From Planctomycetaceae bacterium (lineage in GTDB: Bacteria; Planctomycetota; Phycisphaerae; Phycisphaerales; SM1A02): a stretch of DNA of 33,517 bases. The notes beneath the pieces were generated by a model. The model was not told the DNA's origin. It made no database searches and saw only the letters and a program-made list of their open reading frames with translations. The position numbers and the translations under genes are program-made. Each line of letters opens with the position of its first letter. Position 1 is the stretch's first letter. This document shows positions 17,078 through 29,989 of this stretch, in pieces. Where the stretch lies: NCBI GenBank assembly GCA_027483065.1, contig JAIXVI010000010.1, positions 1 through 33,517 on the forward strand. The letters are read 5' to 3'.

Positions 17078-17110
17078 AATCCGCCAGTTCGCGCTGGCGG
17101 ATTTTCTTTC
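17078..17110 (+). terminator. Rho-independent terminator after the zinc-ribbon gene
   Basis: A perfect 10-bp stem, AATCCGCCAG (17078-17087) with CTGGCGGATT (17094-17103), closes a six-base loop TTCGCG and runs straight into TTTTCTTTC. It lies 65 bases past the stop at 17012 and before the convergent CRTAC1 gene. The opposite strand lacks a T tract, so it should act mainly on the + strand. Confidence 0.82.
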
Positions 17111-17160
17111 GCGAATTTCCTTTCGCGAATTTCCTTTCGCTGATTTCCTTTCGACGAGTG
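17107..17160. repeat. 14-base tandem repeat, three units plus a partial
   Basis: TTTCGCGAATTTCC occurs at 17107-17120 and 17121-17134. TTTCGCTGATTTCC follows at 17135-17148, then a decayed TTTCGACG. It begins within the T tract of the terminator and ends just before the convergent CRTAC1 stop. Confidence 0.85.
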
Positions 17161-17164
17161 ACTT

Positions 17165-19096
17165 TCAACGTCGCACACGAAGCACGCGGCCCGCGGGAGC
17201 AGGTCCGATGGCGACGGGCTCTCCACGCAGCCGATCGCCCGCGAACCAGACGCGTCCACCGACGATTTCGGTCGCGGTTCCGAGGCCAAATCGCGCGAGC
17301 GGCTCGCACTGCGATTGGTAACTGCGCGTTGGCGAAACGACGCGACGTTGCGTCACTTGCTTGCCGTCGATCGCAACATCGATTTCGACTTCCGCCCCAA
17401 GCGCTCCGACGCCCTCGGGCACGATCGCGATCCAACCATGTTTCGTTGCTTGATCGTTGCGAAGAACGCGCGCGGGCCCGTCGAGGTCGATGAGGACGAG
17501 ATCCGTGTCGCCGTCGTTGTCGAGGTCCCCCGCCGCAAGCCCGCGACCGACCGCGGGTTTCGCGAGGTCGCCGAGCGTCGACTCGGGCGCTTCAACGAAG
17601 AGCGGCACCGCGTTGCCGCCGCGGTTCATGAAGAGTTGGCCGCGCTGTGCGTAGGTCTGGCTCGGCGCGACGCGCGCGATATCAGGCTCGAGATGGCCGT
17701 TCGCCTGCACGATGTCCTCGTTGCCGTCGAGGTCGAGATCTGCGAAGAGGAGCCCGAAGGTGAGATAGCGCCGCGTGGGCGCGCCGAAACCTTGGCCGAG
17801 CGCTTCGTCGGCGAAGGTGGGCTTGCCGAACGGATCGCTGTAGAAGTTCGAGACATACAGCGAACTCGGCTCGTTCGCGAAATTGCCGACCGCGACCGCG
17901 AGGCTCATGTCGTTGCGCGGCCATGCGACGTCGATGCCCATCGCGCCCGTCGCTGCGCCGTCGCGGTCGTAGGCGAAGCCCGACTCGACGGCGATGTTCG
18001 TGAAACGCGGCGTGCCGTCGTCGGCGGGGCCGAGGTTGCGAAGGAGGAACTTCGGCGTCTTGTCGTTCGCGACAAGGATGTCGGTGCGTCCATCGCGATC
18101 GGCATCGACGAAGACGAGCCCCAACGCTTTCGCATACGGCTCGCCGGTGACGGGGTTCATGACCCCGACCCCTGATTCCGCCGTCGCGTCGCGGAAGGCG
18201 CCTCGTCCGTCGTTCAACAGCAGCGTCAGCATGGTGCCTTCGAAACCAGTTGGCGGGCCGTACGCACGACCGATCCCGTCGAGCGTGAAGTTCACGCTGC
18301 GATCGATCGCAGGCGACCACGTCACATAGTTCGCAACGATGACGTCGAGATCGCCGTCGTTGTCGGCATCGAGCATGCCTACAGAAGTGCCCCACTCGCC
18401 TTCGCTCGGCGCGTCGATCGCCGCAAACTCTAATCCCCCAGATGCACGCTCCCCGCCTTCTGGCGTTCGATTCAGAAGCACACGGTCTTGCCCGACACAG
18501 GCGATGTAGAGATCCACGTGGTTGTCGCCGTCGAGATCACCCGCCGCGAGTCCGTTCGCGAATGCGCCACGCAAGAGCGCTTCGTCACCAGACCATCGCT
18601 CGAATCGCATCTCGCCCGCAGCCTCGGTGCGGTTGAGGTAGATCCGGACTCCGCCGCGGCCCGCGTCGGGGTCGCTTGCGCTTGGCTCCAAGGGCTCGCC
18701 CTGCGTGAACACGATGTCAAGTCGCTCATCGTGATCGAGATCGACGAGCGCAACGCCGCCCGCAAGACACTCTGGCAGCAATTTGCCACCGCGTGCGCCT
18801 GATTCATGCACGAAATCAACGCCTGCAGCCCCGGCAACATCGGTGAACCGCACAACACTCGGCGGCGCAATCGCTTCCGATGGCGCGGGTGCCGGTGGCG
18901 CGACGACAGCGCCCGACCCAGCATCCGGAACAGGCTTCTTCCGCAGTGTCAGAAACAACGTGATCGCGATCGCGATGAACGCGACCACGCCAACGGAACG
19001 CCAGAATCCGCGCGCGACGAGTCGGTCATCACCCGCGATCTCGCTTCCGTCTGCAGGCTGATCCGCCGGCGGCTTGCGCGTTTCGTTCGATGGCAT
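17165..19096 (-). CDS. CRTAC1-type FG-GAP/VCBS and ASPIC/UnbV protein, membrane anchored
   Basis: The 643-residue protein has one N-terminal membrane segment at about 31-50 (SVGVVAFIAIAITLFLTL) and a proline/alanine linker. FG-GAP-type repeats follow at about 80-540, many with calcium-loop cores (DLDHDERLDI, DLDGDNHVDLYI, DADNDGDLDVIV, DADRDGRTDILV, DLDLDGNEDIV, DLDNDGDTDLVL). The C-terminus at about 545-640 is an ASPIC/UnbV domain (GAEVEIDVAIDGKQ, SYQSQCEPLARFGLG). It is a seven-bladed-propeller-like, periplasm-facing protein; family members are linked to binding or scaffolding and their chemistry is unclear. It lies nine bases after the VWA gene and closes the operon that also encodes the cytochrome and a second UnbV protein. 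Confidence 0.88.
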   Translation of the reverse strand: MPSNETRKPPADQPADGSEIAGDDRLVARGFWRSVGVVAFIAIAITLFLTLRKKPVPDAGSGAVVAPPAPAPSEAIAPPSVVRFTDVAGAAGVDFVHESGARGGKLLPECLAGGVALVDLDHDERLDIVFTQGEPLEPSASDPDAGRGGVRIYLNRTEAAGEMRFERWSGDEALLRGAFANGLAAGDLDGDNHVDLYIACVGQDRVLLNRTPEGGERASGGLEFAAIDAPSEGEWGTSVGMLDADNDGDLDVIVANYVTWSPAIDRSVNFTLDGIGRAYGPPTGFEGTMLTLLLNDGRGAFRDATAESGVGVMNPVTGEPYAKALGLVFVDADRDGRTDILVANDKTPKFLLRNLGPADDGTPRFTNIAVESGFAYDRDGAATGAMGIDVAWPRNDMSLAVAVGNFANEPSSLYVSNFYSDPFGKPTFADEALGQGFGAPTRRYLTFGLLFADLDLDGNEDIVQANGHLEPDIARVAPSQTYAQRGQLFMNRGGNAVPLFVEAPESTLGDLAKPAVGRGLAAGDLDNDGDTDLVLIDLDGPARVLRNDQATKHGWIAIVPEGVGALGAEVEIDVAIDGKQVTQRRVVSPTRSYQSQCEPLARFGLGTATEIVGGRVWFAGDRLRGEPVAIGPAPAGRVLRVRR

Positions 19097-19105
19097 GCTC
19101 CGACT

Positions 19106-20845
19106 TTACCCGATCACCGTGCGCCGCATCTTCACGTAGTCCCAGACGACGAAGCGGTCGAGTTCTTCGCCGCCTGCGAAGAGCACGCGTCCGCCTGTGC
19201 GTTCGGCGAGGCGATGCGCGAACTGCACGTCGTCCTCAGTCTGTGACCAGCTCGGCAAGAGGAAGATGTTGACGACGATCCCCTCGCGACGGCAGCGCTC
19301 GGCCTCGCGCATGGTCTCGGCCTCCGTGCGCGGATCGGGCGGATAGAGCATGAAGAGATCGCTCCCCTCAAAGTGCGCGGTGGGAAGCCCATCCGTGAGG
19401 AGGAAGATCTGGCGGTTCGGCGTGTCCTGCGCCGAGAGCACCTGCCGCGCAAGCGCGAGCGCGCGCTGGATGTTCGTGAAGTGCAACGGCAGATCGAGTT
19501 CGCCGATCTCAGGGTCCGACATATCCGCGCGCAAACGCACGACCGGATCATTGATCGACACGGGCTTCGGCAGCATCTCGACGATCTCGCCCGCCGGACG
19601 AAGTTTCGCGAGCGTGTACATCTCGATCGCTTGTAGGAAATCGCCGGGATATTCGCTCCGAATGAGCGCGTCGAGCGCGAGCGCCATCTTCTTGCACGCG
19701 ATGTACTGGCCGCCGTAGCGCATCGATCCCGACATGTCGAGGATGAGCGCCGTCGCGCACTTTGGCGTGCGACGCGTGCGATGGACGACGAGGTCCTCGC
19801 CCGCGGGGCGCGCCTGCCCAGTGCGCGCGACTGCGTTGAGAATCGACTGCGGCATGTCGAGATTCGCGGGCGAATCGCCGAATTCGTATGCGCGCGTCGA
19901 CGGAAGCTCGATCGCGCCGTCGCGCGACAGCACACCATCATGGCGACCGCGGCGCGCATCGGCGAGTTCACTGAAGATCGTCGCAAGCAGGCGCTTCTGG
20001 TAGGTGCGAAGCGCACGCGGCGACGAGCGATAGCCCTCGGGACTTCGCTCAAGCCCCGCTTCCTCCGCCATCTTTCGAAGGAGTTCATTCACCTGCCGCT
20101 GCACGCGATCCAAGTCGGCAAGTTGCTCCTCGCTCGCAAACTCGCGCAGCGCGGACATGTCGATGATCGCAGGCTTCGCGTTCTTGAGCGCTTCCTCGAT
20201 CTGCTTGAGCAGCCGCTCGATCCGGTCGAGTTCGCCCTTGACTTCAATCGCCTGCGCGACCGTCATTTCCTCGCGGCCGGTGAATGCGTACTTCGACGCG
20301 AGCTGCTCGACCGTGAATCGCTCGCGAAGCCGCGCGATCGCGCGCATGAGCGATTGCGAGAGCGGCGAAGCATCGGGGACGCGACGATGAATCTTCTCGA
20401 GTTCAGCGAGTTGCCCCGCCGCGAGCGCGGGCGCGAGGCGCGGTGCAAGTGCCGCCGGAATCTCGACCTTCGCGGCAGCTTCCGCAGCGCCTTCGTGCGC
20501 GAGTTCTTCGGCTCGGCGCGTTTCGTACTTCTCCAGGATGCGACGACGGCGCTCTTCAAGCATCGCGCGCAGTGCATCGAGGCTCGGCCCGAGACCGCGA
20601 ACTTGCGATGGGTCGAGACGGACGGCGTCGGCGAGTTCGCGCTCGGTAAAGCGACGGCGCGTGCCGTACATCAGCATGTGGTCGAGCATCGCGTCGGCGG
20701 CATCGCCCGAAGGCGGGCGCGTCGGCGGCGGGAACTCCTGCGGGTCGTAGCCGAGATAGGTGTGAACGACCCCGCCGAAGGGCGCGGGTTGCGAGGCGAC
20801 AATCGGCGCAGGATCGCGGGGAGTTGGCACGTCTTCGGTGCTCAC
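19106..20845 (-). CDS. Von Willebrand factor A domain protein paired with a MoxR-like ATPase
   Basis: I start at GTG 20845-20843, overlapping the ATPase stop as GTGA; the 31 codons upstream in frame are arginine-rich and overlap the ATPase gene. Of the 579 residues, about 1-360 are helical and charged (long helices at 85-115, 195-260). The VWA domain is at about 363-560 with a full MIDAS metal site: D370-M-S372-G-S374, T457 (HFTNIQ) and D485 (LLTDG). There is no signal peptide, so it acts in the cytoplasm. In NorD/NorQ and CbbO/CbbQ, a VWA protein couples a MoxR-type ATPase to a client metalloenzyme; I infer the same role here. Candidate clients are the flanking cytochrome and UnbV proteins. 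Confidence 0.88.
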
Positions 20846-22347
20846 AGCCCGCGGACCTCGTAGGAAACGCGGCCGTGTTTTTCGGAGCGCGAGATGCGCT
20901 CGGTCGCCCAAAGTCCTGCGAGCACGAACTCCACGCAACTCGCACGAACGGCGAGATCAGCCGACGCGTTCACTTCGAACGCCTTCTCCCACGCGGCGGG
21001 CACTTCGCGCAACGCAGCGGCGTATGCCGACGATGGCAGCATGTCGCCGACCTCGATGCGCACGCCCTTCGCGAAGATGTCGGCGATGTCGCCGAGTCCG
21101 TGGGCATCGACGTACTCGTTGAACACCGCTGCGATCGCTTCGGCGACGATCGCGTCGATCGCCTGGCGCTCGGTCATTTGGTGCGAACCCATGAGGTCGA
21201 GTTCGAGTTTGCCCGTTGCGCTCGCGTGGAGGTGCGCGAGGTCGCTGATGCGCGGTACGGCAGGCCGCTCGCCATGCGCGATACCGCGACGACGTGCATT
21301 CGCGACCATCGTGCGCCAGTTCGACGCGGCGAATCGCGCGGAGACGCCGCTCGCGTGATCGACGAAACGCGACTTGCGCGCGACGCGCGAGATTTCCTCG
21401 CAAACTTCGTCCATGAACGGCGGGACGAGCACGGGGTACGCACCGCCAAGATCGATGCCCGCTTCTTGCCGCGTGATCGCCATGCCAAGTTCGCGCTCGC
21501 GCGGATAGTGCGTCGCGATCGTGCTGCCGATGCGGTCCTTCAACTGCGGAATCACCTTGCCCGAACGGTTGTAGGTCGTGGGATTCGCGCTGAAGAGGAC
21601 AAGGACATCGAGATCGAATCGGATCGGATAGCCGCGGATCTGGACGTCGCGTTCTTCGAGAATGTTGAAGAGGCCGACCTGTACAAGTTCGTCGAGGTCG
21701 GGCAATTCGTTCATCGCGAAGATGCCGCGATGCTGGCGCGGGATGAGGCCGAAGTGGAGCGCTTCCTCGGCCGACATCGATGTGCCGGACATGAGGCGCG
21801 CCGGATCGATCTCGCCAATCACGTCGGCGAACTTCGTGCCGGGTGCAAGACGTTCTGCGTAGCGCTCGGATCGGTGCCACCACGCGATGGGGACTTGCTC
21901 CGGCGGCGACGAGGCGACGAGTTCGCGGCCTGCGCGCGTGATCGGGCGCTCGGGATCTTCGTGGACCGGCGCGTTGGGGATGTCGAGATGCGGAATCCAC
22001 TCGTCGAGGAAGCGCGGGAGGAGGCGCATGAGGCGGCTCTTGCCTTGGCCCTTTTCGCCGAGGAAGAGCATGTCGTGCCCCGCGAGGATCGCGTTGATGA
22101 CCTCGGGAAGCACGGTGTCGTCGTAACCGACGATGCCGGGAAAGAGATCGCGCGGCGAGCAGTCGGGCGTGGCGAGCGCGCGCACGAGATTGTCACGGAG
22201 TTCGTCTTTGACGGAACGTGAACGCCAACCGGAGGCGCGGAGCTCGGCGAGTGTGCGGATCTTGGGTGGAGCGGAAGTCGCCGCGCGATCGGAGGGCGCG
22301 CGTTCGATGGTGCGGTCAGTCGGTCGTTCAGTCGTGCGGTGAGCCAT
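20842..22347 (-). CDS. MoxR/magnesium-chelatase-like AAA+ ATPase
   Basis: This 501-residue protein has a disordered Thr/Arg-rich N-terminus (to about 30), then an AAA+ core. Walker A is GEKGQGKS (97-104), sensor 1 is SANP (253-256) and a probable arginine finger is in LKDRIG (R272). The Walker B position reads [11 protein letters not shown] (208-218): the usual first acidic residue is asparagine, though the catalytic glutamate E214 remains. A helical lid region follows to the end. Family members remodel clients or aid metal-cofactor insertion together with a VWA partner. That partner is the next gene, overlapping by four bases. 96 bases separate it from the cytochrome stop. Confidence 0.87.
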
Positions 22348-22383: not shown

Positions 22384-22444
22384 AGCCAACTTCCGAATTG
22401 GTGTACGGCACGTGCCGCCCGACGCCTCGCACAAGCGGTTGGCT
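22384..22444 (-). promoter_or_regulatory. Nested inverted repeats in the gap between cytochrome and ATPase genes
   Basis: AGCCAAC (22384-22390) and GTTGGCT (22438-22444) are perfect 7-bp inverted arms. Inside them lies the 12-base perfect palindrome CGGCACGTGCCG (22406-22417). CCAA/TTGG arms could form a competing smaller stem. The gap could fold as an mRNA element, or hold an operator. Short palindromes are expected by chance, so this is tentative. Confidence 0.3.
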
Positions 22445-25383
22445 CACCGACCGCGCGGGCCTGCGGCTTCCCGGCGCAAACCCGGCACTTCAACCCGCGT
22501 GCCCGGCAGCAAATCACCCTCAAGTCGACCCACGCGACCGAGTGAGTAGATCACCGTCGCCTCGGCGGCCGCATTCGCCCACGGGTACTTTTCCCGTGCG
22601 AGCCGGACCGCGCGGTCGCGCGCGTTTTCGTCGGGCTTGTACCGCGCGTGCTGTTCGCGCGCCGCTTTCGCACCGTCCGCATCACCGAGCATCTCGCACG
22701 CGCGGTTCACAAACCACCACGTCGGCGCTTGCTCAGGATCGACCGCGAGCGAACGCTGCGCCACTTCGCGCGATTCCTTTGCCAGCGCCGTGCGTGCGCC
22801 GTCGTCGGGCATCGCGAGTGCCTGCTCAAGCAGCACTTCGGCCAGTTCGTTCAGGACACGCACATCGATCGAGAAGTCGAACGCACGCTCGCGCGCACCC
22901 GCGAAGTCCGTCGCGAGCACGCGTTGGAAACCCTCCGCAGCCTTCGCGAAGTTTCCGTTCTGCTTGTCGACGAGGGCCGTGAAGTACGCGACCGTCCACG
23001 GCGACTTCACTCCTTCGCCGCCCGCTGGCACGAGGAGCGCAGCCGCGTCGTCAAGTCGCCCCTCGCGGATCGCAAGCCGCGCACGCGCCAACGCACCAAC
23101 TGCAGGTTCAAGCGCCGCAACGCGCGCGAACGCTTCATCGGCCTGTCGCAGCGCACCACGTCCCGTGCCCCGGTCACTCTCGCGGAAGAGCCCAATGCCG
23201 TAGTCGTACCAACGCTGCCACTCGGGAATCGCATCGGGCGCGGAGGTCGCCTCGCCATACACGCGACCATCTTGACTGCGCACCGGCAGCACGATTTCGT
23301 CGCGCGCAAGCACCATCACGGGGTAGTCGTTGACGCGCGTCGCGCCTTCGACGAAACGCAGATAGGTCGTGTCGAATTTGCGATAGCGCACTTCGCTCTC
23401 GATGCGGAGCGGCGCCGCCGCGTCCGCTGGAACTTCGAGAAGGAGATGCGTGACATCACCCGCGCCCGGCGGAATTTGGTTGTTGTAGAGCGGGAGGAAA
23501 ATGTCCTGCGGATTGCGTCGATCGATGCGATTGCCTTCGCGATCAATGACGAACGCGTTGAACATGCGCGACCACGGATCGAGTTCGCCGGTTGCTTGAT
23601 CGAGGCCCCCACTCACGCCAACGACGCGCGCGTCGCGATCTGCTGGCTCAAGCGTCGCACGCGTCCACAGCCAAACCTCGTTTGAATCTGCGGTTCCCTG
23701 CGTGAACTCGTGCCCGATATCGAGCGTTCGGACGACGACTTCAAGCAGGTACCGCTGACCCGCGTCGAGCACGGGCAATTCCGCGCCGATCACGCGCAAC
23801 GCACCGTCGATCGCACCGCCCTCGCGCACCGCGAAGAGATCGACCCGCACGGTCTTCGCGTTGAATGCCGCGTGACCCGCGACGATCGCCGCATGGGCGT
23901 CCGCGGCCGTTTCGCTCGCCATCTCATCGGGAAGTTCGGCGCACGTTGCACCTGGAAGCATCGCGCAGGCCGATTGGTCGATCGCCTTCGAAAGTGCCGT
24001 ATTCGCGCTTGGGAACGCGTGCGACAACACGCTGCGCACGCCGCTTCCATCGCGATCGCGCGCGGCGAAGTCGTCGCTCGCCACCGCCTGCATGTGGCAC
24101 GAGTTGCATGAGGTCGCGGCCTTCTCGGGGTAGTACCAACCGAGCGCACCATGCCCGCTGCGTCCAGACGCAAGGAATGACCCGTAGTGATCTTGCCCGC
24201 GCAGCCACTTGTAATCGTTGAGCGGCTCCGGGAGGAAGACCTTGTGGCACGAGCCGCAGAACTCGTTCGAGCGGTGCACTTCCGGCTTCAAGAACGTGCG
24301 CTTATGAAACGACGGCTTCGCCTTCACCAGTTGATTCGACACCCACTGCAAGAGCGGTGATTCGCTGAAGGCAAACGGATAGTGCGGACTCTCTTCGATC
24401 GTGTAGTCGGCGTTTCCGCGCGGACTATCGATCGAAACGATGCCGTGACACACAGTGCAGGTGATGCTCGCGCGGCCGAGCGGATCATTCGCGACGTCGT
24501 ACGCGGGGTCGTCCCACTTCGCATCTTCAAACGCGCCCGCGAAGAATGGCACTGGATCGTGGCAGCCCGCGCAGAAACGCGCATCCTGCACACTTCCATC
24601 CTTCTCGAACGCTTCACGACGCGTCTCGCGCACACTCGCCGCATAAAACGGATTGTTGAACGAACTCGTCGCGTGCACGGAGTGCGCCCACGAGTGCACC
24701 ACATCGGCGTGGCACTCGAGGCAGTACTCATTCGCCATCAAGCCCTTGGCCGGAATGAATCCGCCCGTCGAGGTCTTTGCGAGTGACGGCTCGAAGTAGC
24801 TCGCGCCATCTTCCGGAACACGCGGCGCGCGCTCGGGAAGCACGACGTGCGCGAGCGTGGCGACCACCGCGACGCCGGCCGCAACCGCTGCCCACCGCGC
24901 ACCAACCGCCCACTTGATGCGACGGCCCGAGAGTCGGTGCAAAACAAAGAGCCACGCTGCGACGAATGGCGCAATGACATGCACCCAATACACGATCTCG
25001 CGCGTCGTCGGCTCGCGGACGCCGATCGTCGTGCCGCCAAATTCCACGCGTGTCAGTGCAACGCCCGTCGCGAGCAACACGATCGCTGCGACGAAGGTCG
25101 CGATACCCGCCGCGATCGCACGCGGATTCGGACGGTTGGCGACGTTACGCCAGTGGAGTGCGCCGAACACGATCGTTGGAACCACGATCGCGAACCCGAG
25201 CACGAGGTGCGCGAGGAAGTTGACGAGGTAGAAGCGATTCTCGAGCGTCTCGCCGGTCTTCCACTGCAGGAACGTCACAGCGCCGAGGTAGACGCTATTG
25301 ACCGCCAACAACGCGAACAGCCCAAACACCGCGGCAAGAAGCCACTTCAGTTTCGGACCAACCGCTGGGCGGAACTTCGACAT
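22444..25383 (-). CDS. Membrane-anchored pentaheme c-type cytochrome with C-terminal TPR region
   Basis: The 979-residue protein starts at ATG 25383-25381. About five membrane segments lie at roughly 13-37, 52-76, 90-110, 129-148 and 160-181. The heme domain follows with five CXXCH sites: CLECH (221), CAGCH (271), CTVCH (309), CGSCH (376) and CNSCH (426). Histidine-rich spacing around HSWAHSVHATS and SPHYPF could supply distal ligands. Residues about 490-720 are beta-rich, and about 750-940 are TPR-like helices (ALRQADEAFARVAALEP, FAKAAEGFQRVLA). The predicted role is electron transfer on the periplasmic face, fed from the membrane. It begins 20 bases after the UnbV lipoprotein gene. The heme part recalls cytochrome c-554-type multiheme families; substrate and redox partner are unknown. 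Confidence 0.9.
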   Translation of the reverse strand: MSKFRPAVGPKLKWLLAAVFGLFALLAVNSVYLGAVTFLQWKTGETLENRFYLVNFLAHLVLGFAIVVPTIVFGALHWRNVANRPNPRAIAAGIATFVAAIVLLATGVALTRVEFGGTTIGVREPTTREIVYWVHVIAPFVAAWLFVLHRLSGRRIKWAVGARWAAVAAGVAVVATLAHVVLPERAPRVPEDGASYFEPSLAKTSTGGFIPAKGLMANEYCLECHADVVHSWAHSVHATSSFNNPFYAASVRETRREAFEKDGSVQDARFCAGCHDPVPFFAGAFEDAKWDDPAYDVANDPLGRASITCTVCHGIVSIDSPRGNADYTIEESPHYPFAFSESPLLQWVSNQLVKAKPSFHKRTFLKPEVHRSNEFCGSCHKVFLPEPLNDYKWLRGQDHYGSFLASGRSGHGALGWYYPEKAATSCNSCHMQAVASDDFAARDRDGSGVRSVLSHAFPSANTALSKAIDQSACAMLPGATCAELPDEMASETAADAHAAIVAGHAAFNAKTVRVDLFAVREGGAIDGALRVIGAELPVLDAGQRYLLEVVVRTLDIGHEFTQGTADSNEVWLWTRATLEPADRDARVVGVSGGLDQATGELDPWSRMFNAFVIDREGNRIDRRNPQDIFLPLYNNQIPPGAGDVTHLLLEVPADAAAPLRIESEVRYRKFDTTYLRFVEGATRVNDYPVMVLARDEIVLPVRSQDGRVYGEATSAPDAIPEWQRWYDYGIGLFRESDRGTGRGALRQADEAFARVAALEPAVGALARARLAIREGRLDDAAALLVPAGGEGVKSPWTVAYFTALVDKQNGNFAKAAEGFQRVLATDFAGARERAFDFSIDVRVLNELAEVLLEQALAMPDDGARTALAKESREVAQRSLAVDPEQAPTWWFVNRACEMLGDADGAKAAREQHARYKPDENARDRAVRLAREKYPWANAAAEATVIYSLGRVGRLEGDLLPGTRVEVPGLRREAAGPRGR

Positions 25384-25403: not shown

Positions 25404-28400
25404 TCACCGCCCGCCCATCGGTCGAGTGCGCATTTTCTCCATCGCCGCGGGCTTCGAGCCAGGGAGCGGTTCGATCGTCTCGCCGTCCTTCGTGAAGAGG
25501 TCCATGTCCTTGCACCAGCCGCGGACTTCGAGGATGTAGCGACGCGTTGTTCCCGCGGGCGCTTCAGCGGGAAACCCGCCAGAAACCCCGCCAGAAACCC
25601 CGCCAGAAACCCCGCCAGAAACACTGGCCGAAAGTTTGGCGGGCACACGGAAATCAACCGTCACCTGCTCGCCTGGCCCGAAGACCGCGAGCGACTCGTC
25701 GCCACCACGCACGAGCTCCGCGACATCGCCGAACTCCGTGTAGAGCCCGAATTGGAATCGGCAATCCCACAACGGAAGTCGCCGCGCATCGTCGTAGTGC
25801 GGTTGCTTCTGCGGTCCGGTGGTTCGTTGCGCGAAACCGACCGACGCGAGCTCCGCGCCTGCGAGCGCGAGTTCGATCGGCGCGGTCGGCAGTGCTTCAC
25901 GCGCGACAAGCCGCACGCTGTCGAAGTAGACCTCCATGTTCGTGCGCATGCGAAGCGCGTTGACGCCTGCGGGCAGTTTCTCGCGCGGAATCGGCAGTGC
26001 CATGCGACGCGGCATCCCCGCGGGATAGCCCCACTCCTCCACCAGCGTCGTCCAAGTGCCGTCGACACCGCGTGCTTCGAGACTCGGCGCGCGATACTTC
26101 GCGCCCGCCTGCCATGCCGCAAACATCGTTTGGCAGTACGGGTACTCAACCCACCCGTCAATGACGAGCCATGGATCGGCGATCGCGCCGATCTCGGTCG
26201 CAAACTCAAGTTCGAGTACCTGTTCACCGGCGAGTCTTCCGAGAAAGCGCGGATCGTGCGGCCCGACGTCGGGCGCAACGAGGTCGACCTTCGCCAACGC
26301 TTCGCGACTCGACGCGTTTGCGGTCGATGCGATCCACTCGTCTTTCCACGCGACGATATCGCCGGTTGGCGCAACGCCGCCAATCGCGAGCCGCTCATCG
26401 GGCGCGAGGTCCCAACCTTCAGGTACATCAACCGCACGCAGCGCGACCTGATCGAGCATGCATGATTCTTCCATCGGCTCGGCAAGCGCGATCCGCAACG
26501 CGCCATCGGCGCGCGGTACAAGCGCACCTTCCGGAAACACGAACGTTTCGCGCGGACGCGGCTCGCTGTAGACGCCAGGCTCTAGGAGGTACCCGAGCCC
26601 ACCCACACCAAGGAGATCCGACACGAACTCCATCCGCTCGCCGTTCCATGCGAAGAGCACGGGGCACGAAGAGATTTGCCGCTGCGTCTCGACGATCGAT
26701 GTGATTTCGCCAGCCTTCACGCCGACTTCACTTTGAAAGACACCGTCCGACCACTCGATCTCCACGACATCCGCCGCGTCGAACGGACCGATTCCCACGG
26801 AAACAGGCGCGAGCGACTGTCCGCGACCGGTGTGTGAGCGGAACGTTTCACCGCCGAACCACTCGTTACCCACGCGAACCGCGTAGGCCGTACCGATGCC
26901 ACTGGTATTCGAACGCATCGATTGCGACGGATCGTCGCGTCCGCTGAAACGGAACGCGACCGAGTTTCCGCGCCCCGGCCCCGGCGCGAGCAGAAGCGGC
27001 GCTTTCCCCGCGCGAAGCGCGAGCACCGACGGGCCTTTCGTTGCGTCAAGTTGCACGGCCTGTGCGCGAATGATCTCTTCACCGTACGGAAGCTCGGTGA
27101 CGAGTCGTCCGGATTCATCGAGTAAAAGCATGCTTTTCGCACGCATCAGCAAGAGATCACTGTGCCCATCGCCCGTTGCATCGACGACGGCGAGTTCCGT
27201 TCGCGCGTCGCGCGCGTAGGTCTCAATACGCGTTGGCATGCGCAAGTAACCGCCACTCGCGAGTGCAAGTCGTCGCAGCGGAATGTCGGCGAGATCGACT
27301 ACTGCTGCTGCGAGGGCCTGTTCGTCCAGTTGCTCTTGCGTGAAGCCCGGAGCAGTACCTGGCACCCATCGCCAAAGCCGCTCGTTCAAGAGCAGCGTGT
27401 GCGGCGGGAGTTCGTTCAAGATGAAGATGTCGGCATCGCGGTCGTAATCGAAGTCGCCGATGATTGTTGAAATTGGCCCGCGCTCCGCGGTCTCGAATCC
27501 CGGAATATTGAGCGCCTCCTTCGCAATGTCTTTGAACGATCCGCCGACATTCGCAAGAAGTTCAATCGGCCCGTCGCGTGCGAGGAGCAACACATCGAGA
27601 TCACCATCGTGATCGAGGTCTGCGAGTGCGCCGTCACCACAACTTGTCGTCGTTCCCGCTGCTTGCCATGTCTCCGTCGCATCGCGGAAACCACCACCTG
27701 GTTCCGCGAGAATCAACCGATTTCCGCCGCTGCGACAGAGATAGAGATCAGTCAACCCGTCGTTGTCGACGTCACCGAGCAAGATCGACCACGTCGAACC
27801 TCCTGCCAACGTCGCCAGCGCGTGATCTGGCTTCGCAACGAACGATCCGTCCGCTTGACCTGCAAGAAAAAGCGCCGACAAATCAAACGCACCCTTTTCG
27901 ACGAGTGCCCGCGCGATCAGGATGTCGAGACGTCCGTCGGCATCTAGATCGCCTACAACCGCATGCTGCTCGAGATCCTGCGACCACTGCGGGGCGTAAC
28001 CCTCAGGCCAGCGAATCGCGAGTTCTTTCGGTGCTTCGAAGATCGGCCCCGACGGCGGCTTCCAATCGGAGGGCGTGAACGACTTGGGAAGTGGTGCCAA
28101 GCCAAGTGAACCCATGCGTGTGTATTTGAACTCCGCGTTCTTCGCGCGCGGATTGGCCGCCAAATCCTCGAACGACTTCAGCGCACTCTCCGCGCGCGCT
28201 TCATCGCCTGTACGACGCGCACATCGTTGCATGCCGAGAAACGCACTCTTCAAGCGCGCGTCGCGCGTGGCGGCTCTTTCATACCACTCAAATGCTTTCG
28301 CGTACTCACCGGTTTGCTCGAGTGCTTGTCCCGTGAAGTACTGCGCGTACGCATCTTCACCGCGCGCCTGCGCAACAGGAAGAAATGCCGTCAACGCTTC

Positions 28401-28853
28401 GGCCGGCTTTCCGAGATAGAGAAGGCAAAGGCCTTGGCAATAGCGTGCACGCAGCGCGAGATCTTTCGGCGGGTTGGTTTTGAGAAACTCGCCGAGCAGC
28501 GCGAGCGCTTCGTCTTGCGCTCCCTCGCGCGATTGATTCAAGATCGCAATGGCATGACCGAGCGCTACCTCACGCGGCGCGTTCGGCAACTTCGCGATCC
28601 GCGCAAACTCCGCGGCCGCTTGCTCAAACTCGAATCGCCCCATCATGCCAACGGCGCGATTGAGTTCCGCCGCGAGCGCTGCGTCGAGAGGCTCTGCACT
28701 TGACTGCTCACTCTTCCCCGCCGTTTCCGTCGCGCCTTCCTCTTTGCCGCAACCAAGTGTGACCGAAACGAGCAACATCGCGGCAGTAAGACTGCGCGCG
28801 AAAAGCACATGTTCGCGAAGGCGAAGGCTGTCGAAGTTCAAAGCGAGGGACAT
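25404..28853 (-). CDS. TPR/FG-GAP/ASPIC-UnbV lipoprotein
   Basis: The 1149-residue protein begins at ATG 28853-28851, with a lipoprotein signal ending VTLGC (C35). Order of parts: TPR-type helices at about 55-235 (LGKPAEALTAFLPVAQARGE, TGEYAKAFEWYERAATRDARL); FG-GAP/VCBS repeats at about 295-560 with calcium-loop cores (DLDADGRLDILI, DVDNDGLTDLYL, DLDHDGDLDVLLL, DATGDGHSDLLL); an ASPIC/UnbV part at about 640-700 (GTAYAVRVGNEWFGGETFRSHTG, VVEIEWSDG); then a long beta-rich end with CPVLFAWNGERMEFVSDLLG at about 715-735. A repeated VSGG linker sits at 1078-1093. It would be an outer lipoprotein facing the periplasm or surface. It is the second UnbV protein of the operon and directly precedes the cytochrome gene. 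Confidence 0.88.
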   Translation of the reverse strand: MSLALNFDSLRLREHVLFARSLTAAMLLVSVTLGCGKEEGATETAGKSEQSSAEPLDAALAAELNRAVGMMGRFEFEQAAAEFARIAKLPNAPREVALGHAIAILNQSREGAQDEALALLGEFLKTNPPKDLALRARYCQGLCLLYLGKPAEALTAFLPVAQARGEDAYAQYFTGQALEQTGEYAKAFEWYERAATRDARLKSAFLGMQRCARRTGDEARAESALKSFEDLAANPRAKNAEFKYTRMGSLGLAPLPKSFTPSDWKPPSGPIFEAPKELAIRWPEGYAPQWSQDLEQHAVVGDLDADGRLDILIARALVEKGAFDLSALFLAGQADGSFVAKPDHALATLAGGSTWSILLGDVDNDGLTDLYLCRSGGNRLILAEPGGGFRDATETWQAAGTTTSCGDGALADLDHDGDLDVLLLARDGPIELLANVGGSFKDIAKEALNIPGFETAERGPISTIIGDFDYDRDADIFILNELPPHTLLLNERLWRWVPGTAPGFTQEQLDEQALAAAVVDLADIPLRRLALASGGYLRMPTRIETYARDARTELAVVDATGDGHSDLLLMRAKSMLLLDESGRLVTELPYGEEIIRAQAVQLDATKGPSVLALRAGKAPLLLAPGPGRGNSVAFRFSGRDDPSQSMRSNTSGIGTAYAVRVGNEWFGGETFRSHTGRGQSLAPVSVGIGPFDAADVVEIEWSDGVFQSEVGVKAGEITSIVETQRQISSCPVLFAWNGERMEFVSDLLGVGGLGYLLEPGVYSEPRPRETFVFPEGALVPRADGALRIALAEPMEESCMLDQVALRAVDVPEGWDLAPDERLAIGGVAPTGDIVAWKDEWIASTANASSREALAKVDLVAPDVGPHDPRFLGRLAGEQVLELEFATEIGAIADPWLVIDGWVEYPYCQTMFAAWQAGAKYRAPSLEARGVDGTWTTLVEEWGYPAGMPRRMALPIPREKLPAGVNALRMRTNMEVYFDSVRLVAREALPTAPIELALAGAELASVGFAQRTTGPQKQPHYDDARRLPLWDCRFQFGLYTEFGDVAELVRGGDESLAVFGPGEQVTVDFRVPAKLSASVSGGVSGGVSGGVSGGFPAEAPAGTTRRYILEVRGWCKDMDLFTKDGETIEPLPGSKPAAMEKMRTRPMGGR
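25570..25623. repeat. In-frame 12-base tandem repeat coding VSGG
   Basis: Three exact units of GAAACCCCGCCA (25582-25617), plus an imperfect flanking unit at 25570-25581 and a partial one after, encode four VSGG blocks on the - strand. Because the unit is 12 bases, copy-number change would alter linker length but not the reading frame. Confidence 0.9.
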
Positions 28854-28880: not shown

Positions 28881-28938
28881 TTCGTGGGTGCAATCTTCGT
28901 GGGTGCAATGTTCGTGGGTGCAATCTTCGTGGGTGCAA
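28881..28938. repeat. 15-base tandem repeat, four units, upstream of the UnbV lipoprotein gene
   Basis: TTCGTGGGTGCAATC occurs at 28881-28895 and 28911-28925, with a one-base variant at 28896-28910 and a 13-base partial at 28926-28938. It lies 27 bases upstream of the lipoprotein start codon, in the 137-base gap after the hydrolase gene. That position suits a regulatory or variable-number repeat. Confidence 0.9.
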
Positions 28939-28990: not shown

Positions 28991-29989
28991 TTACGGAAGT
29001 GTCCGCTTCGCTGCCGCAATACGCGCGTCGTTCGACGCGATATCAATCGCGCCACTCCCCGCCCGCGCAAATCGCGGCATTGCAGCGTACGGGTGGACTT
29101 CGGCGCGGTAGTGCGCACGCATGTCGTGGCCCTGACGTCGCGCACGCGCGTCGCGCAGCGCTGCCAAATCGATCGGCGCAACCACGACTTTTTCGCCGGC
29201 CCCTGGATCCGCCTGCGCAAGCACGCGACCGTCGAAGTCGACCGCCATCGAACCACCTGGCCACGAGAACGGCGGGTAGCCCTCGAAGGTCGCGCCTTGA
29301 TTGCACGCAAGCACAAACGCGGTGTTCTCAATCGCGCGGGCACGATTGATCGTCGTCCACCAATCCATCGGCGCGGTTGCCCCCCACGGATCCATGTACG
29401 CACTCACACGGACGAGAATCTCTGCGCCGTGAAACGCGAGTTGTCGAATGGACTCGGGGAAAAGCCAGTCGTAACAAATCGCGCAGCCGATCTTCCCGAT
29501 CTCCGTGTCCGCCACCGGAAATGGTTCTTCAACGTACTGCGGAAAATCATGCGGACTCGCGTGCACTTCCCACGGAATCCACGGATTCACCTTGCGGTAC
29601 TTCGCGACGATTCCCTCCGGACCGATGAGGCACGTCGTGTTGAACACCGCGCCCGGATAGCGCGCGTCGCGCTCGATGAATGTGCCCGTTTGCACGTAGC
29701 ACCCCGTTGCGCGCGCGAAGCGCACGTACGCGTCGGTGTGGTCGTTTGGAATCTCGACCGCGAGATGCTGAAGCAACTCTTCGACCGTGAAATAGACCGG
29801 CGCCGCGTGTGCAAACTCAGGAAACGCGATGAGCCGCACATCGAAAAACGGCTTGTATCCCGCGACGGTTTGCTCCGCCATCGCAATCATGCGCGCAACG
29901 CGCGACGGGATTTCCGCGCGCGTTCGCGGATTCTCAAACGCCGTTTGAATCGCGGCAGCGTGATAGCGTTCGACGGTAGATTTGGGCAT
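28991..29989 (-). CDS. Carbon-nitrogen hydrolase (nitrilase superfamily)
   Basis: The 332-residue protein has the complete nitrilase-superfamily triad: E58 in AFPEFAH, K133 in KYRKVN and C172 in GCAICYDWLFPES. Glycine-rich and WPGGSMAVDFDGRVLA strands support the four-layer alpha-beta-beta-alpha fold, and the length suits an aliphatic amidase, nitrilase or N-carbamoyl amidohydrolase. There is no signal peptide, so it is cytoplasmic. The substrate cannot be told from sequence; the basic HDMRAHYRAEVHPYA tail recalls amidase-type members. It follows iscX by 61 bases on the same strand and precedes the UnbV lipoprotein. Confidence 0.88.
   Translation of the reverse strand: MPKSTVERYHAAAIQTAFENPRTRAEIPSRVARMIAMAEQTVAGYKPFFDVRLIAFPEFAHAAPVYFTVEELLQHLAVEIPNDHTDAYVRFARATGCYVQTGTFIERDARYPGAVFNTTCLIGPEGIVAKYRKVNPWIPWEVHASPHDFPQYVEEPFPVADTEIGKIGCAICYDWLFPESIRQLAFHGAEILVRVSAYMDPWGATAPMDWWTTINRARAIENTAFVLACNQGATFEGYPPFSWPGGSMAVDFDGRVLAQADPGAGEKVVVAPIDLAALRDARARRQGHDMRAHYRAEVHPYAAMPRFARAGSGAIDIASNDARIAAAKRTLP

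Follow-up and report, generated by a model that had tools for sequence, protein, structure and literature searches.

What are two large FG-GAP/UnbV proteins doing in one operon with a membrane cytochrome? The question is raised by a contig of 33,517 nucleotides (JAIXVI010000010.1) from the 3.7 Mb genome of a Planctomycetaceae bacterium (assembly GCA_027483065.1, G000 below), and the window analysed here is this entire contig. Planctomycetota and Acidobacteria are rich in UnbV/CRTAC1 proteins, to which the papers that we searched assign no role in bacteria. Here they are tied to one membrane cytochrome and to an amidase by operon structure, co-occurrence and gene fusion. We call the four genes AMI, A, B and C, and propose that AMI-A-B-C encodes a redox complex of the envelope that is linked to quinones and coupled to the hydrolysis of an amide, with A as its outer part, a tentative reading to which we give somewhat less than an even chance. 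The genes of this cassette are:

28991..29989, minus strand: AMI, a nitrilase-superfamily (CN_hydrolase) amidase in which no signal peptide was seen, first gene of the cassette (PF00795, 137.3 bits)
25404..28853, minus strand: A, a lipoprotein-like protein of 1149 aa with the order TPR, FG-GAP, UnbV-like segment, C-terminal beta domain (open reading frame bounds exact)
22444..25383, minus strand: B, a membrane cytochrome of 979 aa with five transmembrane (TM) helices, five CxxCH motifs, a beta domain and TPR (sequence, model)
17165..19096, minus strand: C, a single-span FG-GAP/UnbV protein of 643 aa (Pfam)

Along the minus strand the order is AMI (29989-28991), A (28853-25404), B (25383-22444), a MoxR-like ATPase (22347-20842), a VWA protein (20938-19106) and C (19096-17165). 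The gaps are 137 nt between AMI and A, 20 nt between A and B, 96 nt between B and the MoxR-like gene and 9 nt between the VWA gene and C, while the MoxR-like and VWA genes overlap. Gene overlaps of 4 nt are found in several of the compared loci, e.g. between AMI and A in L070, L071 and L080. The first-pass annotation, made from the letters alone, had placed both UnbV proteins in one operon with the cytochrome, with A directly upstream of it, and this stands (A ends 20 nt before the start of B); the amidase at the head of the operon (28991-29989) had been missed.

The association extends well beyond this contig. We compared 61 relatives including the own genome, assigning presence of A, B, C and AMI by hand from search listings, and the best 80 named-genome loci of at least 332 confirmed A relatives, 39 of which carry what we call a strong A homologue (at least 440 bits). 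The full set of A, B and C occurs in 34 of the 61 relatives, B and C without A in one (G036), and none of them in orthologous form in 26, so that A is present or absent jointly with B and C in 60 of 61 genomes. At genus level A and B were both found in 19 cases and neither in 19, with 0 and 1 cases of one apart from the other (Fisher test 3e-10, kinship ignored). A and B adjoin in 30 of the 34 genomes that carry A, B and C. Of the remaining four, G003 has them about 2 kb from each other, G025 and G060 have them on separate contigs, and G027 has B-C away from the long contig that contains A. Among the named loci B lies directly downstream of A in 22 of 31 strong ones with enough DNA, and C comes right after B in 19 of 21 of these A-B loci, the other two being L067, with the MoxR and VWA genes between, and L068, which shows no C. 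The cassette occurs across Phycisphaerae and Gammaproteobacteria and in one locus labelled Acidobacteria (L094). The pairwise distances of A, B, C and AMI are correlated (r 0.68-0.88, 0 of 2000 permutations each); common descent by itself could produce such a correlation as well.

The two UnbV proteins are also joined in single genes. C itself is over the Pfam cut-offs for FG-GAP_3 (82.5 bits) and UnbV (35.5 bits, cut-off 23.4) and has one hydrophobic N-terminal span in its sequence, as the first reading of 17165-19096 had it. In G060 (L154:10740-15869) a single frame of 1709 aa holds a C half with 42% identity over residues 59-634 of C (P0002) and an A-like half with TPR, FG-GAP, UnbV-like segment and C-terminal domain (23% identity, E 2e-37). 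In a genome of another family, G142 (L171:5487-10457), a 1656-aa frame joins C to an A-type C-terminal domain with TPR between them. These two fusions are the strongest sign here that both UnbV proteins act jointly. The idea that homologues of the two proteins should co-occur, and that both belong with the cytochrome, was thus borne out by the 34 of 61 genomes with A, B and C, by the adjacency in 30 of those 34 and by fusions in two families.

The amidase is almost as constant a partner as cytochrome B. AMI is found in 33 of the 61 relatives, one copy each (in two pieces in two genomes), and all 33 carry A, B and C; it lies directly upstream of A in 23 of the 35 strong named loci with enough DNA. 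The Glu-Lys-Cys triad is kept in 29 of 29 homologues, as expected of the nitrilase superfamily. A placement as formamidase or aliphatic amidase was tried and rejected, the NCBIfam scores being 96.1 and 85.9 bits against cut-offs of 406 and 427. In acidobacterial loci with a distant A (L107, L117, L119, L121, L124, L128, L131) an AS amidase (PF01425), unrelated to AMI, lies beside A, and in L108, acidobacterial with a more distant A, such an enzyme adjoins B-C-A. Nine AS genes reach at least 390 bits in the 80 loci, and only the one of L111 lies elsewhere, 8 kb off. In G060 (L154), which belongs to the window's own order and has no AMI, an AS amidase stands directly before B-C. That AMI can give way to an unrelated enzyme with this type of reaction suggests that hydrolysis of an amide is part of what the cassette does.

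The anatomy of B can be divided as follows:

24841..25356, minus strand: five predicted TM helices with invariant His 59, 77, 135 and 149, a possible diheme-b module (model helices 10-181)
23284..24753, minus strand: pentahaem and beta region, residues 211-700 (structure match to 5ze8; profile match)
22564..23229, minus strand: TPR region, residues 719-940 (structure model and comparison)

The model of B, built from 29 sequences (pLDDT 87.9, pTM 0.86), contains the helices at 10-181, the haem region, the beta domain and the TPR. Alignment A3 left out L076 (B cut off) and two fragments of L107, and A4 in addition L071 (an ambiguous base). Residues 211-699 align with 5ze8, cytochrome c552 of Thermochromatium tepidum (Z 15.1, 344 residues, rmsd 3.5, 17% identity), which the profile search from B also finds (E 2.9e-10). 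In passages of PMC11976967, c552-like proteins are grouped with ExtKL, Gsu2801 and cable-bacteria cytochromes, some of them possibly catalytic. B has the five c-haem motifs of these pentahaem cytochromes (PHCs) and the fold of their haem and beta domains; the PHCs described so far are soluble secreted proteins, and B has five predicted N-terminal TM helices. To judge from the model, B is a membrane-bound relative of the PHCs and not a typical member. The five CxxCH motifs and the four TM His (59, 77, 135, 149) are kept in 23 of 23 cassette orthologues of B. At the sequence level these His form the two pairs in TM helices expected of a diheme-b protein, and a membrane part of this kind makes it most likely that B is linked to the quinone pool. 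Outside the membrane part, none of the 29 aligned sequences deviates at His 237, 360, 455 or 558. Four such His for five haems would leave room for one open haem, but the 23 cassette orthologues all have His 399 and His 646 too. The plasmid search for B found one distant relative. On plasmid pACIX901 of the cultured acidobacterium Granulicella tundricola (L174) a distant relative of B adjoins three CRTAC1 genes in a neighbourhood that also encodes TonB receptors and glycosidases.

Protein A, the supposed outer part of the complex, is divided as follows:

28749..28853, minus strand: signal peptide through the lipobox Cys 35, TLG/C (sequence; lipobox table)
28149..28676, minus strand: TPR region, residues ~60-235 (PF13432, 34.7 bits at 144-198; borders by eye)
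27129..27971, minus strand: FG-GAP propeller region, residues ~295-575 (PF13517, 75.6 bits, 3 stretches; borders by eye)
26673..26969, minus strand: UnbV-like segment, residues ~629-727 (PF07593, 16.3 bits, below cut-off)
25407..26672, minus strand: C-terminal domain, residues 728-1149, starting SSCPVLFAWNGER and nearly all beta (alignment A2; structure model)

TPR_16 is above its Pfam cut-off (32.7 bits) and FG-GAP_3 far above its own (26.9 bits), the latter being matched by 20 of 20 homologues at E<=0.01 in alignment A1, which used 20 of the 59 A loci. The FG-GAP part furthermore matches the CRTAC1 structure 9etn (E 1.2e-4). UnbV_ASPIC remains under the cut-off of 23.4 bits and is matched at E<=0.01 by 12 of the 20 aligned homologues; by these scores A is UnbV-like and is not placed as an UnbV_ASPIC member. 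The full architecture is found by homologue search throughout the genus and in most of the family, and the aligned members from other families of the phylum have 22-29% identity. One A relative in G190 (L170:3523-9948) reaches 2141 aa, the first ~1200 residues being without any Pfam match. By pattern A has the N-terminal signal and the lipobox Cys of a bacterial lipoprotein, and the lipobox of the window species (residue 35) deviates from the consensus. The pattern recovered a lipobox-like Cys in 32 of the 39 strong homologues. Among the other seven, three sequences run off a contig end, the start of one is uncertain, and three do have a Cys, but amid off-consensus residues. The FG-GAP/UnbV lipoprotein first described at 25404-28853 therefore holds in its exact frame, in FG-GAP and TPR above cut-offs and in the lipobox-like Cys, with UnbV below its cut-off. 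The remark that only A has TPRs is right for the two UnbV proteins and wrong for the operon, where cytochrome B has them as well.

The residue after the lipobox Cys (+2) bears on the side of the envelope to which A would be anchored. It is not Asp in any of the 15 homologues with a readable N-terminus that are labelled Gammaproteobacteria or its orders: R, S, S, Q, S, G, S and A in L072, L075, L077, L078, L079, L081, L084 and L085, and S, T, A, S, S, G and E in L087, L089, L090 (by eye), L092, L093, L098 and L142. In E. coli, lipoproteins without Asp at +2 are sorted to the outer membrane, and by this rule an outer-membrane location is predicted for gammaproteobacterial A. The predicted spans of B and C place both in the inner membrane. 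With A in the outer membrane opposite B and C in the inner one, a complex of the three bridging the periplasm is plausible, and the two-sided envelope complex of the first-pass annotation, seen in the light of the spans and the +2 residues, stands at that level.

The same placement would also suit an electron conduit, in which quinol electrons cross the periplasm to the outer membrane or outside, as in the Ext systems of Geobacter, and the amidase is incidental. The haem region of B resembles T. tepidum c552, grouped in the passages of PMC11976967 mentioned above with ExtKL and cable-bacteria pentahaem cytochromes, and A is probably an outer-membrane lipoprotein in Gammaproteobacteria. However, AMI, A, B, MoxR, VWA and C, the genes to which the scan was limited, include neither a porin nor a cytochrome of the outer membrane, and a conduit leaves unexplained the constant amidase and its exchange for an unrelated one. 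We regard this as rather unlikely.

In the quinone-linked complex that we prefer, B in the inner membrane would exchange electrons with the quinone pool via its b-type module and pass them through the five periplasmic c-haems, as its anatomy indicates. C, held beside B by its one span, and A, probably an outer-membrane lipoprotein, would be propeller scaffolds that hold the complex together and may bind its substrate or partner; the C-A gene fusions support this joint action of A and C. In the cytoplasm AMI would hydrolyse an amide that either feeds the redox step or results from it, a role suggested because AMI is a constant operon partner and is replaced by an unrelated amidase.

Several observations weigh against this proposal. 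AMI is missing upstream of A in 12 of the 35 named loci, and B is not downstream of A in 9 of 31. In G027 the cassette is divided between contigs, AMI-A on one and B-C on another, although A is not near the end of its long contig, and G036 retains B-C without A or AMI. The A homologues of L076 and L069, labelled Beta- and Deltaproteobacteria, carry Asp at +2, and for Planctomycetota the +2 rule has yet to be established. We identified no site at which the redox step would be catalysed, and B may be only an electron carrier. Finally, the TonB/glycosidase region around the Granulicella relative of B has no amidase, and therefore the wider B family is not tied to amides.

The split cases also bear on the simplest alternative, that A, B, C and the amidase are merely co-transcribed and have no joint action. 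Operons can group unrelated functions, and members are split or lost in G027, G036 and L081; against this, C and A are fused in two genomes and A is jointly present or absent with B and C in 60 of 61, which makes mere co-transcription improbable. In G036 the locus L153 (G036:C178) has, upstream of B-C, an FG-GAP protein and a DHOR-type di-haem oxidoreductase.

Between B and C the window contains two more genes:

20842..22347, minus strand: MoxR-like AAA ATPase (PF01078, 24.1 bits, cut-off 20.3; PF07728 below cut-off)
19106..20938, minus strand: VWA (CoxE-like) protein, partner of the MoxR-like ATPase (PF13519, 28.5 bits, cut-off 27)

The MoxR-like ATPase is found at this position in part of the genus only (in L067, L167 and L169, not in L160). 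In L080, L088, L100, L102 and L159 a second UnbV-type gene and a TPR gene lie divergently beside the cassette head, the product of the TPR gene in L080 being a probable lipoprotein. The MoxR-VWA pair that some members of the own genus have within the operon, together with the TPRs of A, of B and of a frequent extra partner, would fit an assembly or maturation module, in which TPR and propeller proteins are chaperones for a metalloenzyme, MoxR/VWA its activators, and B donates or withdraws electrons in cofactor loading. But in 79 of the 80 named loci the cassette lacks MoxR/VWA homologues, and a shared client enzyme did not emerge; we consider such a module quite unlikely.

The C-terminal domain of A (~420 residues) is without a Pfam family. 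It was compared in alignment A2, made of 75 of 77 candidate domains plus the window (L114 and L125 left out), in which the S-C-P of the CPVLFAWNGER stretch is invariant in 76 of 76 sequences; this motif, picked out at first sight of the sequence, is real. The model from these 76 sequences (pLDDT 92.5, pTM 0.91) gave no Foldseek match for the whole domain (TMq <=0.21 among the matches listed), and a profile search of the PDB with the domain gave nothing significant. Within the model, residues ~47-261 resemble galactose-binding-like folds (CBM32/F5_8C-type) at Z <=9.3 over ~130 residues, near the level of unrelated models; this match covers about one third of the domain, and the jelly-roll fold concerned is a common one. 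The domain occurs once in the own genome and in 67 of 199 genomes of the phylum. Whether it also stands alone had been put forward as a check, and in these 199 genomes it does not: by their coordinates, the listed matches always lie in longer frames or in frames apparently cut by a contig end. An envelope sensor or binder of a polymer or glycan via the galactose-binding-like lobe of A, with the cytochrome serving general respiration, is very improbable, for although part of the domain resembles such folds (at the Z just given, near unrelated models) and the Granulicella relative sits among glycosidases and TonB receptors, this fold is widespread and does not point to a ligand, and no glycosidase is found among the scanned recurrent neighbour families (10 proteins).

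Some minor features of the DNA complete the description:

25571..25622, minus strand: 12-bp tandem repeat coding for a Val-Ser-Gly-Gly linker within the C-terminal domain of A (repeat scan; low-confidence model loop)
28881..28938, strand undefined: 15-bp tandem repeat, 3.9 copies, between AMI and A (TRF score 109)

The linker corresponds to model residues 354-366 (pLDDT <50), and the 12-bp repeat coding for it is not present in the 19 other aligned homologues of A1. A 14-bp repeat array lies at 17097-17153, just beyond the end of C. Rfam and tRNA scans of the window gave no matches, and those for promoters and terminators stayed at chance level.

Outside the own genome the A family has another kind of haem enzyme for a neighbour. 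In the acidobacterial loci L117, L121, L124 and L128 an A homologue and the AS amidase precede, in one direction, a hydrazine synthase (HZS)-like cluster composed of DAHP synthase, an HZS_alpha-like protein, an UnbV-type protein, HZS beta-gamma-like and then a RidA-like protein. The L121 protein holds the HZS_alpha middle domain (61.1 bits, cut-off 26.6) and its counterparts in L117, L124 and L128 resemble it. By gene neighbourhood this links the A family elsewhere, not in the window's genome, to putative haem enzymes related to nitrogen chemistry. A hydrazine-synthase role in G000 was rejected, as the genome has no HZS_alpha match (3 of the 61 genomes have one). A broader and rather doubtful extension is that the UnbV proteins carrying the SCP-type C-terminal domain serve as dedicated subunits in an undescribed class of periplasmic redox complexes for amide- or nitrogen-bearing compounds, in which the haem enzyme (quinone-linked pentahaem B or HZS-like) and the amidase (nitrilase or AS type) would be exchangeable and the UnbV pair constant. 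The link of A relatives to HZS-like clusters bears on the origin of such nitrogen-chemistry complexes. The cassette is found in the named isolates Wenzhouxiangella sediminis XDB06, Wenzhouxiangella sp. XN79A and Thioalkalivibrio sp. XN8, which makes the function of the UnbV family directly testable.

Each component can be set beside a known system. With regard to the UnbV/ASPIC (CRTAC1) proteins, C passes the Pfam cut-off, whereas A differs by the TPR in front and the 420-residue domain behind. AMI shares the CN_hydrolase domain and the triad with formamidase and aliphatic amidase of the nitrilase superfamily, and by its scores forms a separate branch. Quinol-linked fusions of diheme-b and multihaem-c parts, e.g. 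CbcL of Geobacter, join TM helices with paired His to a multihaem c part in one chain. B has five TM helices with the b part N-terminal, and its likeness to these fusions is one of general anatomy. The PHC family (T. tepidum c552 5ze8, ExtKL, Gsu2801 and the cable-bacteria PHCs) has, like B, five CxxCH motifs and an alignable haem region; B has in addition a TPR tail and five TM helices bearing four invariant His, and it is accompanied by UnbV proteins and an amidase instead of porins. In the passages of PMC12758564 on HZS-like gene pairs, these flank a CRTAC1 FG-GAP gene (clades I-III), and amidase and UnbV are not mentioned there. Such clusters have an FG-GAP/UnbV protein beside a multi-subunit haem enzyme, as in the cassette, but B is not HZS-like. 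In the open papers searched on UnbV/ASPIC/CRTAC1, and on FG-GAP with cytochrome or amidase, we found the cassette described nowhere. What is new is the way in which known families are combined, and not the kind of protein.

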